Shown here piece after piece: positions 45,934 through 59,470 of a stretch of DNA of 61,389 nt (within the stretch, counting starts at the first letter, position 1; each line of letters starts with the position of its first letter). A program made the translations under genes and the position numbers. Source of the DNA: Candidatus Roizmanbacteria bacterium RIFCSPLOWO2_02_FULL_40_13 (lineage in GTDB: Bacteria; Patescibacteriota; Microgenomatia; UBA1406; GWC2-37-13); NCBI GenBank assembly GCA_001789965.1, contig MGBA01000012.1, positions 1-61,389 of the forward strand, read 5' to 3'. The notes beneath the pieces were generated by a model. The model saw nothing but the letters and a program-made list of their open reading frames with translations. It did not search any database and was not told where the DNA came from.

Positions 45934-46020
45934 GGAAGGGTGCGAGAGTGGTTGAATCGGTACGCTTGGAAAGCGTATATAGCGGCAACGTTATCATGGG
46001 TTCGAATCCCATCCCTTCCG
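45934..46020 (+). tRNA. tRNA-Ser(GGA)
   Basis: An 87-base class II tRNA. Acceptor GGAAGGG pairs with CCCTTCC, discriminator G; anticodon stem TACGC/GCGTA around loop TTGGAAA with anticodon GGA; variable arm ATAGCGGCAACGTTAT; T-arm ATGGGTTCGAATCCCAT. No CCA is encoded. A TAAAAT box lies about 15 bases upstream. A palindromic repeat cluster starts directly after its 3' end. Confidence 0.95.
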
Positions 46021-46083
46021 CCTTCGTTCGACGAAGCTTTAGCGAAGTCGAAATTCGTCGAACTTCGGCGGACACAGTCCGCT
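46021..46083. repeat. REP-like palindromes after tRNA-Ser
   Basis: GTTCGACGAA (46026-46035) and TTCGTCGAAC (46054-46063) are exact reverse complements; the loop contains CGAAGTCGAA, related to the CTGAG..GTCGAA core found elsewhere in the window. A second hairpin, GCGGAC-ACA-GTCCGC, follows at 46068-46082. Confidence 0.6.
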
Positions 46084-46149: not shown

Positions 46150-46386
46150 GTGTTTTACGTCTACATACTAAATTGCTCAAATGGGCAATCATACTTGGGT
46201 TGCACAAAAAATCTTAAAGAAAGATTAAAAAGACATCAAAAGGGCTATGTTCCAGCAACTAAATCCTTACTTCCATTAAGGCTTCTTGCGTACTTTGCTT
46301 TTCCCAACAAATACACCGCTTTCAATTTTGAAAAATATCTTAAATCAGGTTCCGGAAGAGCGTTCATGAAAAAACATTTCTACTAG
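46150..46386 (+). CDS. Small GIY-YIG-domain nuclease
   Basis: A 78-residue protein that is almost only a GIY-YIG domain: FYVYILNCSNGQSYLGCTKN (about 2-21) matches the GIY...YIG strands with YLG in place of YIG, LKERLKRHQKG has the catalytic Arg, and FNFEKYLKSGSGRAF holds the metal Glu. Single-domain members are of the YhbQ type and may act in DNA repair or recombination. The start is GTG at 46150; no ATG is available. It overlaps the convergent folK gene by 4 bases. Confidence 0.75.
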   Translation: MFYVYILNCSNGQSYLGCTKNLKERLKRHQKGYVPATKSLLPLRLLAYFAFPNKYTAFNFEKYLKSGSGRAFMKKHFY

Positions 46387-46856
46387 ATAATCGACTTTTG
46401 ATTATCAGAGAGTTGCAAATAGAGATCCTTCAACTTCTTCTTCAAAACAGGATGAACAAAATCTTTTTCAATGTCGAGAAAAGGTTTCAAAACAAAATCT
46501 CTCTCATGCATGCGCGGATGAGGAATTTCTAATTTTTTACTCCTATAAATAAGTTCTTTGTAAAAGATAATATCGATATCTATTTCTCGCGGTCCCCATC
46601 TAAATCTCTTCACTCTCCCCATCTTTTTCTCAATTTCTTTTACAAAGTGAAAAAGCTCAATAGGTTCAAGTGAGGTCTCACCTTTTAATGCGGTATTAAC
46701 AAAATTGTCCTGTTTGGTATATCCAACAGCTTTTGTCGTGTAAAACTTTGCAACCTGAACTTTTCGAACCTTTTCTTTTAATAGTGAAATCGCATCCTCA
46801 ATATTTTGTTTACTGTTCCCGACATTTGATCCCAAGGCAAGAAAAATAATACTCAT
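46383..46856 (-). CDS. folK: 2-amino-4-hydroxy-6-hydroxymethyldihydropteridine pyrophosphokinase
   Basis: A 157-residue HPPK, the enzyme that activates the pterin before it is joined to p-aminobenzoate. Motifs are FLALGSNVGNSKQNI (about 5-19), the catalytic segment RFRWGPREIDIDIIFY (about 84-99; the two Asp bind Mg) and LEIPHPRMHERDFVLKPFLD (about 109-128). Full length. Its ATG overlaps the folP stop (4 bases), so folP and folK form a coupled operon with folP first. Confidence 0.95.
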   Translation of the reverse strand: MSIIFLALGSNVGNSKQNIEDAISLLKEKVRKVQVAKFYTTKAVGYTKQDNFVNTALKGETSLEPIELFHFVKEIEKKMGRVKRFRWGPREIDIDIIFYKELIYRSKKLEIPHPRMHERDFVLKPFLDIEKDFVHPVLKKKLKDLYLQLSDNQKSII

Positions 46857-47707
46857 CGCGAGACCCTTTCCAGCGTCGTTACAAACTTTTTAGTTTCAAG
46901 TACGTCATGCGTGCGAATTATTCTTGCACCATTTACATATGCGATAGCAGTTTCTGCGAGTGCAGCTTCTAGTCTTTTTCCGGAAGGTGGAATTTTTTTC
47001 AACTTTAATTCATCCATAAGAATTCTACCGAGATGACTTTTTCTCGACGTCCCAAATGCGATAGGAAGACCAAAACTTTTAAATTTATCTAGTTCTTTCA
47101 CGATTTTAATATTTTGCTCAAAAGTTTTCCCAAATCCAATGCCAGGATCAATAATAAATTGATTTTTCTTTAATCCCGCCCTCTCCCCTATTTTTATTTG
47201 ATTCTTAAAGAATTTTTTTATTTCACCTATCAAATCCTTGTAAACGTTATCTCCTTGTTGCATGGTTTTTGGTTCGCCTTGAATGTGATAGATAATGATC
47301 GGGCAATGAAATTTCCTAACAACATTTGTTAATTTTGGATCAAAGGCAAAGCCTCCTAGACTGTTTACAATAGCCGCACCGTTTTTCAGAGCTCGCAATG
47401 CAACGTTTGATTTATATGTGTCTATAGAGACAGGGATGTTCTTATCAATTCTTTTTATAGCTTTGATTACGGGTAATACGCGGTTAAGTTCTTCTTTTTC
47501 GCTTACTCTTTCTGAGCCGGGTCTCGTAGATTCTCCACCGACATCGATTACATCAACTCCCTCGCGAATCATTTCCTTAACTCTTGCAATCACCCTCTTG
47601 ATGTTTTGGTAATAAAGTCCTCCATCCGAAAACGAATCAGGAGTAATGTTCAAGATTCCCATTATTACGACTCGTTTCTTTTTAAGAAGTTTTTCGAAGG
47701 GTTTCAT
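46853..47707 (-). CDS. folP: Dihydropteroate synthase
   Basis: A 284-residue DHPS that joins the activated pterin to p-aminobenzoate in folate synthesis. Signatures are MGILNITPDSFSDGG (about 16-30), DVIDVGGESTRPGSERVS (about 52-69), IPVSIDTYKSNVA (about 90-102), DPGIGFGKTFEQN (about 187-199) and the end RTHDVLETKKF. Full length. Many CPR bacteria lack folate synthesis, so the pair with folK is worth note; no other folate gene is in the window. The promoter region carries a palindrome (47708-47726). Confidence 0.95.
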   Translation of the reverse strand: MKPFEKLLKKKRVVIMGILNITPDSFSDGGLYYQNIKRVIARVKEMIREGVDVIDVGGESTRPGSERVSEKEELNRVLPVIKAIKRIDKNIPVSIDTYKSNVALRALKNGAAIVNSLGGFAFDPKLTNVVRKFHCPIIIYHIQGEPKTMQQGDNVYKDLIGEIKKFFKNQIKIGERAGLKKNQFIIDPGIGFGKTFEQNIKIVKELDKFKSFGLPIAFGTSRKSHLGRILMDELKLKKIPPSGKRLEAALAETAIAYVNGARIIRTHDVLETKKFVTTLERVSR

Positions 47708-47726: not shown

Positions 47727-47773
47727 GATCCTTATAGCTTGATATAATAGTCCTTATGCCGATGTGGCGGAAC

Positions 47774-47849
47774 CCCGAAGCAGAACAAAGTTCGCTACGG
47801 GCACGCTGGTAGATTTATCCTGAAGTCCTGAGTTTGTCGAAGGATCGAA
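47774..47849. repeat. REP-like palindromes inside the broken tRNA-Leu
   Basis: A first hairpin, CCCGAAGCAGAAC paired with GTTCGCTACGGG (47774-47801), sits after GGAAC of the tRNA. A second, ATCCTGAAGTCCTGAGTTTG to CGAAGGAT (47816-47844), has the CTGAG-TTTGTCGAA core also seen at 54460, 59356 and 59436. Each interrupts the tRNA sequence with short duplicated bases at the joins. Confidence 0.55.
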
Positions 47850-47863
47850 GGACGCGCAGATTA

Positions 47864-47950
47864 GGGCGAGTGGCGGAACTGGCAGACGCGCTAGCTTTAG
47901 GAGCTAGTGAGAGAAATCTCGTGTGGGTTCAACTCCCTCCTCGCCCACCA
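47864..47950 (+). tRNA. tRNA-Leu(UAG) with encoded CCA
   Basis: Acceptor GGGCGAG (47864-47870) pairs with CTCGCCC; discriminator A and CCA (47948-47950) are encoded. D-arm TGGCGGAACTGGCAGACGCG; anticodon stem CTAGC/GCTAG around loop TTTAGGA with anticodon TAG; variable arm TGAGAGAAATCTCG; T-arm TGGGTTCAACTCCCT (one mismatch likely). It is complete and probably functional. The CCA is encoded here but not in the Ser, Gly or Leu(CAA) genes of the window. Confidence 0.93.
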
Positions 47951-47998
47951 TGAGTTCTCCGACGTTTCAGTCGGAGTCCGACACGAAAGTCGTCGGAC
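47951..47998. repeat. GC-rich palindromes after tRNA-Leu(UAG)
   Basis: TCCGAC-GTTTCA-GTCGGA and GTCCGAC-ACGAAA-GTCGTCGGAC form two adjacent hairpins between the inner tRNA CCA and the 3' fragment of the outer tRNA. They resemble the palindromes after tRNA-Ser in design. Confidence 0.55.
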
Positions 47999-48020
47999 AA
48001 GTCCCTCCATCGGCACCAGA

Positions 48021-59282: not shown

Positions 59283-59354
59283 GCGGGATTAGTTCAGTGG
59301 TAGAATGTCTGTTTTCCAAACAGAAGGTCAGGGGTTCGAATCCCCTATCCCGCT
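59283..59354 (+). tRNA. tRNA-Gly(UCC)
   Basis: A 72-base tRNA. Acceptor GCGGGAT pairs with ATCCCGC, discriminator T; D-arm TAGTTCAGTGGTAGAA; anticodon stem TCTGT/ACAGA around loop TTTCCAA with anticodon TCC; T-arm AGGGGTTCGAATCCCCT. No CCA is encoded. Its last 18 bases are duplicated at 59453-59470. Confidence 0.95.
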
Positions 59355-59470
59355 CTGGATTCGACAAGCTCACCATTCGCGTGGGATTGTTGAATCCAAA
59401 AAGGAAAAATACGAAGGGGGGATGAGAAGTTTACCCTGAGTAAAGTCGAAGGGAATCCCCTATCCCGCTC
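59338..59470. repeat. Direct repeat of the tRNA-Gly 3' end bracketing a 97-base insert
   Basis: GAATCCCCTATCCCGCTC at 59338-59355 (the end of tRNA-Gly) recurs exactly at 59453-59470, 115 bases later. The segment between holds a palindrome GGATTCGACAA / TTGTTGAATCC (59358-59398) and CCCTGAGTAAAGTCGAAGGG (59434-59453). The design is that of att sites at a tRNA gene, here with only a tiny insert left. Confidence 0.65.

Follow-up and report, generated by a model that had tools for sequence, protein, structure and literature searches.

Structure of the tRNA-Leu locus

The window, that is, the whole analysed stretch of 61,389 nucleotides, comes from Candidatus Roizmanbacteria bacterium RIFCSPLOWO2_02_FULL_40_13 (genome G000; other G numbers denote its relatives). 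It contains a nested locus, in which an intact tRNA-Leu(UAG) at 47864-47950 lies between the ends of a second tRNA-Leu, 47758-47863 and 47999-48018, together called the shell. The features are listed in the order of their positions.

47740-47748, + strand: candidate extended -10 promoter box TGATATAAT, 9 nt 5' of the outer tRNA start (found by eye)
47758-47773, + strand: outer tRNA-Leu 5' piece 1, with acceptor strand GCCGATG, TG and D-stem GCGGAAC (sequence)
47774-47805, + strand: palindrome 1 in the outer D-loop, CCCGAAGC...CGGGCACG (sequence, fold)
47806-47813, + strand: outer tRNA-Leu 5' piece 2, D-loop CTGGTAGA (sequence)
47814-47852, + strand: palindrome 2, REP-like, TTTATCCTGA...GTCGAAGGATCGAAGGA (sequence)
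47853-47863, + strand: outer tRNA-Leu 5' piece 3, the D-stem 3' strand and the anticodon 5' strand, CGCGCAGATTA (sequence)
47864-47950, + strand: inner intact tRNA-Leu(UAG), acceptor GGGCGAG/CTCGCCC, encoded CCA (ARAGORN; Rfam RF00005, 52.7 bits)
47951-47957, + strand: TGAGTTC, possible remnant of the outer T-arm 5' side (sequence only)
47958-47998, + strand: two adjoining hairpins in the outer T-loop (sequence)
47999-48018, + strand: outer tRNA-Leu 3' piece from the T-loop to CCA, AAGTCCCTCCATCGGCACCA (sequence)

The outer acceptor partners, the three 5' pieces in tRNA-Leu order and the palindromes at their joins all lie where the first-pass annotation had placed them, and the intact inner tRNA with its own CCA is confirmed by both ARAGORN and Rfam. 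The outer acceptor strands pair at 7/7 positions (GCCGATG and CATCGGC). A 7-mer that stands directly before GGCGGAA and has its exact complement in the 3' part did not arise in any of 20000 shuffles, and thus the pairing of the outer ends is not due to chance. The 5' part of the shell reaches GCAGATTA (47863) and so extends into the anticodon loop. The 3' half of the anticodon arm, the variable arm and most of the T stem are missing, and neither ARAGORN nor Rfam scores the shell as a tRNA. Its best intact match is the tRNA-Leu(UAG) of the relative G009, with the 3' end identical at 16/17 bases. The fold of the whole 261 nt has z = -3.6. Relatives of palindrome 2 adjoin the genes of tRNA-Gly (59430), tRNA-Ile and tRNA-Ala in G000, and one occupies the same position in G027.

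Two earlier claims hold in part. A promoter had been placed exactly before the outer 5' end; an extended -10 box is indeed seen there by eye, but a consensus scan requiring a -35 box found no promoter before the outer tRNA. No further TATAAT-like box was seen in the sequence between TGATATAAT and the inner tRNA. The same box is also found 5' of shells or displaced tRNA pieces in G027, G073 and G012. The encoded CCA ends of both tRNAs, said to be unlike the other tRNAs, are indeed peculiar within the window; however, other tRNA genes of G000 encode CCA too.

Genome G000 (925 kb, 94% complete) is a draft of 25 contigs. Its tRNA-Leu set, as given by ARAGORN, consists of UAA, CAA, CAG, GAG and UAG, the latter being the inner tRNA. 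All five leucine isoacceptors are thus present without the shell, which makes the shell surplus. The inner tRNA is the sole tRNA-Leu(UAG) found in G000 and the only one found for CUA codons, which would explain why an insertion could be tolerated. An exact search with the core of the inner tRNA produced no matches in viral contigs and one match in genome contigs, a G027-like record from a groundwater Candidatus Roizmanbacteria MAG.

An intron and a split tRNA were considered and rejected. A group I or group II intron in a tRNA gene does not agree with the absence of the anticodon region from the shell; moreover, no Rfam intron match was found in the window or in six nested or related loci, and at a relaxed threshold the nested loci yielded tRNAs and chance matches only. 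The halves of a split or permuted tRNA could not give a full tRNA, as the middle of the shell is missing. Finally, the displaced end at the Leu locus of the window does not match the inner tRNA, as it would in an element using a tRNA gene as attB. Displaced 3' ends beside an identical intact tRNA do occur at the Gly, Gln and Trp loci of G000 and in several relatives.

Nested loci in related genomes

Complete nested tRNA-Leu loci were found in three more genera of the family, represented by G056, G073 and G079. The inner anticodon is CAG in G073 and UAG in G079 and G056. In G027, from another genus, the 5' half of a nested locus lies at a contig end, and the 3' side is off the contig. Its order is the same: first an extended -10 box, next a 5' piece that is broken and has a similar palindrome in the matching position, and then an inner tRNA at the same breakpoint. 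The counterpart of the outer 5' piece 3 is CACGCAGATGA. A pattern search for the outer 3' end in G027 gave one chance match inside a coding stretch.

The state of the shell differs between these loci. In G056 the shell has kept its own UAG anticodon and lost the acceptor pairing, as expected of a dying gene. In G079 the inner and shell acceptors are identical, and the inner tRNA may not be foreign there. The ends of the cassettes vary between loci, so that the cassette need not be the same one everywhere. A folK-folP pair adjoins the nested tRNA-Leu in G000 (46383-47707) and in G073 (locus L159, contig G073:C37, 6554-7911) in different orientations; folP is present in 3/72 genomes of the family.

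An unoccupied counterpart is available for the G073 locus. The shell in G073 is GCCGCAG..CTGCGGC followed by tRNA-Ser(GCU) and folP. At the syntenic place in its congener G070 there is an unbroken tRNA-Leu(CAG) with the same ends GCCGCAG..CTGCGGC, again followed by tRNA-Ser(GCU), with folP nearby. An intact Leu(CAG)-Ser(GCU) pair is also present on contig C4 of G000. The shell of G073 is thus a native Leu(CAG) gene in which the part from the D-loop to the T-loop has been replaced, and, given the unbroken native gene in G070, the nested state in G073 arose by insertion into a native gene and its replacement. The proposed comparison with syntenic loci therefore produced an unbroken tRNA-Leu for G073, but none for the locus of the window: a search via folP and the HTH gene that lies downstream gave no synteny that could be used in 72 genomes of the family, and the HTH gene was found in no other of them.

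Kinship of the inner tRNAs

The inner tRNAs of G000, G027 and G073 share 93-98% identity and fall into one clade of two UAG tRNAs and one CAG tRNA, whereas their shells differ. Between G000 and G027 the inner Leu(UAG) genes are 97.6% identical, the highest value among 37 shared isoacceptors, most of which are 63-88% identical. Pro(UGG), Ile(UAU), Gly(CCC), Met and Cys tRNAs are 93-97% alike, and the rest do not exceed 88%. This division into two groups may reflect a wider exchange of tRNA genes. The other functional tRNA-Leu genes of these two genomes are 75-78% alike, and a direct count gives about 76% identity for the 5' pieces of the shells, which have thus diverged like native genes.

The inner tRNA of G073 (CAG) is 92.9% identical to the UAG inner tRNAs; on the tree it joins them (84/90) and not native Leu(CAG), although the support values of a tree built on such short sequences are rough. 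By its body it thus belongs with another isoacceptor, as in tRNA remolding. A free-standing tRNA from another genus shares 97.6% identity with the inner tRNA of G056. Judging from these similarities, the kinship of the inner tRNA is foreign.

GIY-YIG genes and displaced tRNA ends

Besides the nested locus, the window contains two features of a related kind.

46150-46386, + strand: small GIY-YIG endonuclease ORF, tRNA-associated (Pfam PF01541, E 5.8e-13)
59283-59470, + strand: tRNA-Gly(UCC) at 59283-59355, then palindromes and a displaced exact repeat of its 3' end from the T-loop onward, AATCCCCTATCCCGCTC (about 59453-59470) (sequence)

The ORF lies 131 nt downstream of tRNA-Ser(GGA) (45934-46022) on the same strand, and the closest protein on the tree is encoded beside tRNA-Ser(GGA) of G016. 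The tRNA-Gly(UCC) locus represents an insertion of this type that has no ORF.

We surveyed 22 genomes of the family and order and found 105 small GIY-YIG ORFs (Pfam PF01541), in all of which (105/105) the catalytic residues Y, Y-x-G, R and E are invariant. Within the cut-off distance of 400 nt from a tRNA gene there are 51/105 ORFs, 41 of them within 100 nt, always on the strand of the tRNA; the expected proportion is 4.9% (P about 3e-38). In 25/51 tRNA-linked loci a displaced piece of the same tRNA lies beyond the ORF, with mononucleotide shuffles serving as controls. When the tRNA is downstream, a displaced 5' piece is found upstream of the ORF (20/30 loci); when the tRNA is upstream, a displaced 3' piece is found beyond the ORF (5/21 loci). 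The tRNA species cluster on the nuclease tree, with 28 changes against the mean of 36.7 in shuffled data, and none of 200 shuffles produced as low a number. A clade of 23 proteins, chosen after the tree was seen, has no members near tRNAs and provides an internal negative control (Fisher P 1.5e-8).

The tRNA neighbourhoods of G000 were read one locus at a time. Displaced ends of tRNA-Gly, Trp, Gln, Asn and Thr adjoin the intact copies, and several of these loci contain a small GIY-YIG ORF. By our estimate, based on word length and mismatches, about 0.02 matches would be expected by chance over 44 tRNAs. The Thr(GGU) locus (L022, G000:C6, about 1200-1640) contains two overlapping parts of a broken tRNA, with an intact tRNA-Thr and a GIY-YIG ORF in between; the anticodon arm of the broken tRNA forms a perfect palindrome, CCCCGCC-GT-GGCGGGG. 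In addition, the 3' end of tRNA-Trp is repeated exactly about 1 kb downstream of this tRNA (L029, G000:C14, 2289-2307).

Similar arrangements were found in the relatives. At the Leu(GAG) locus of G012 a displaced 5' piece is followed by a GIY-YIG ORF and then by the intact tRNA; the displaced piece has palindromes at the D-loop positions seen in the window, with a different palindrome at the position of palindrome 1. A separate palindrome family occurs in 9/373 genomes of the class, mostly at a broken tRNA end. In G004 (L170, G004:C2, 1-4646), 13 identical tandem units of 357 bp lie at a contig end, each made up of the 5' piece of a tRNA-Ser, palindromes and a GIY-YIG ORF; this 13-fold array could be either a real amplification or an assembly artefact. 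Downstream of an invaded tRNA-Leu(UAA) in G006 (L071, G006:C48), a broken tRNA-Thr precedes an intact tRNA-Thr(UGU) and differs from it in the acceptor stem.

No GIY-YIG match was found between 47758 and 48018, and no GIY-YIG gene is present inside the nested loci of G056, G073 and G079 or the visible part of that of G027. Hence the link between the nested form and the nuclease is indirect, and the nested Leu loci may be nuclease-less derivatives. Compared with the first-pass annotation, the new observations are that nesting recurs in other genomes and that it goes together with small GIY-YIG endonuclease genes at tRNA genes.

Origin of the nested loci

The data show the anatomy of the locus, its recurrence in other genera, the empty site of one sister case, the foreign kinship of the inner tRNA and a strong association of small GIY-YIG genes with tRNA genes and displaced tRNA ends within the same genomes. 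The explanation that we prefer, with a probability of about 0.72, is that a small mobile cassette consisting of a foreign tRNA-Leu(UAG) flanked by palindromes entered a native tRNA-Leu gene. The native gene would have been opened at its loops, and the cassette would have been copied in between the anticodon loop and the T-loop, with the loss of the native middle, so that only the ends persisted as the shell. The inner tRNA would then be transcribed from the native promoter and freed by ordinary tRNA processing. The empty site in G070, taken together with the clade of inner tRNAs, implies that a foreign cassette entered native tRNA-Leu genes and probably took over their promoter and decoding function. 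The same two observations bear out the earlier suggestion that the second tRNA was carried in, the empty site doing so for the G073 case; its alternative, that this tRNA was already adjacent, found no support. The entry of palindromic elements into the tRNA gene, also suggested previously, is borne out as well.

As regards the mechanism, the association described above suggests that insertions may be started by GIY-YIG cutting of tRNA loops and subsequent recombination, and homing elements that target tRNA genes may re-supply an intact tRNA. The displaced pieces and the clustering of tRNA species on the nuclease tree would agree with a specific cut at the target and transfer by recombination. 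The cassette of the window could have moved in this manner and be nuclease-less now. A broader possibility, which we consider to fall slightly short of an even chance, is that the tRNA genes of these ultra-small bacteria are mobile: nuclease-linked cassettes, each with a complete tRNA, home into the loops of native tRNA genes, destroying and replacing them, and a part of the tRNA set is exchanged horizontally with the cell remaining viable.

The main rival explanation assumes two successive insertions, one on the D-loop/anticodon side and the other in the T-loop, each displacing one end and re-supplying it. The inner tRNA would then be a rebuilt native one whose acceptor changed later. Both types of single-ended loci indeed exist, as the counts of displaced 5' and 3' pieces at GIY-YIG loci and the ORF-less examples demonstrate, and G079, where the shell and inner acceptors agree, may fit this scheme. 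However, the acceptors differ by several paired changes in G000, G027, G056 and G073, the shells of G000 and G073 still pair at 7/7 positions, and in G073 the inner tRNA clusters with the foreign UAG tRNAs, apart from native Leu(CAG), by its body and not merely by its ends. On balance we regard a two-step origin as unlikely.

It is distinctly less probable that the nested state is old and was inherited vertically from an ancestor shared by G000 and G027, with slow change of the inner tRNA and drift of the shell. The two loci do break alike, after GCAGATNA, with a similar palindrome at this point. However, given the 75-78% identity of the other tRNA-Leu genes, slow change of one tRNA would be odd, and the flanking genes are different in the stretch that can be seen. 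Besides, the differences between the shells include paired changes in the D-stem, typical of once-functional native genes and not of drifting scraps.

The first-pass annotation had allowed for a split or processed outer tRNA. A functional shell, whether a split, processed or structural RNA, could account for the perfect acceptor pairing, the stable fold and the promoter-like box directly upstream. This claim found no support: the 3' half of the anticodon arm, the variable arm and a complete T arm are not there to be joined, the five leucine isoacceptors are present without the shell, the shell of G056 is degenerate, and what corresponds in G070 to the G073 shell is an ordinary tRNA. We consider such a function very improbable. 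Mis-assembly of two tRNA loci, conceivable for a draft genome and for a structure within which the G027 contig ends, is less credible still, as contigs of independent assemblies contain this architecture in their interior (e.g. a G073 contig of 79 kb) and a related GIY-YIG/tRNA arrangement is found in the single-contig genome G007.

Invasion by a cassette carrying a foreign tRNA would provide a route for swapping an essential RNA gene for a foreign copy with its function kept, the old gene remaining as a fossil shell. It would also give a possible role to the numerous small GIY-YIG proteins encoded in these genomes, and it is relevant to the fact that tRNA identities between G000 and G027 are either 63-88% or 93-98%.

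Comparison with known systems

In the literature searched, mainly open-access journal papers, there is no account of bacterial tRNA-in-tRNA nesting or of tRNA-linked GIY-YIG genes in this group. However, partial analogies exist. Integrative elements use tRNA genes as attachment sites, and the combination of an intact tRNA with a displaced 3' end, from the T-loop onward, is similar. On the other hand, the inserts described here are about 0.1-0.4 kb long and contain a GIY-YIG ORF at most, with no integrase seen in the loci read, and 5' ends are displaced even more often. The palindromic elements of Rickettsia and REP/MITE repeats are short palindromes that enter genes, including RNA genes. Unlike them, the palindromes considered here are located at tRNA loops within displaced pieces, and the cargo of the nested loci is a complete tRNA.

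SegB of phage T4 is a free-standing GIY-YIG homing endonuclease of the tRNA region, encoded between tRNA genes (PMC2988022). It is tied to preferred inheritance of this region and drives tandem amplification of tRNA genes together with segB (PMC2988022; PMC13096335). The loci described here are analogous in that GIY-YIG genes with intact catalytic residues are situated at tRNA genes, and the 13-fold array of G004 recalls the SegB amplification. They differ in that they reside on chromosomes of reduced bacteria and encode small single-domain proteins. Moreover, the elements are located within tRNA genes; tRNA ends are displaced, palindromes occur and entire tRNAs are nested within others.

The rRNA genes of CPR bacteria carry GIY-YIG-encoding insertions that cannot be assigned to group I or group II introns (PMC11270868); the text of that paper does not mention tRNA. 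The situation is similar in that a GIY-YIG gene resides in a non-intron insertion in a structural RNA gene of the same broad bacterial group. However, the targets here are tRNA genes, and these are rebuilt or replaced rather than interrupted.

In tRNA remolding, or recruitment, a tRNA lineage switches its anticodon and assumes the role of another tRNA (e.g. PMC4783518). The inner CAG tRNA of G073 beside the UAG inner tRNAs is of this type. In contrast to remolding, the take-over observed here proceeds by physical insertion, and the ends of the old gene are left behind as a shell.
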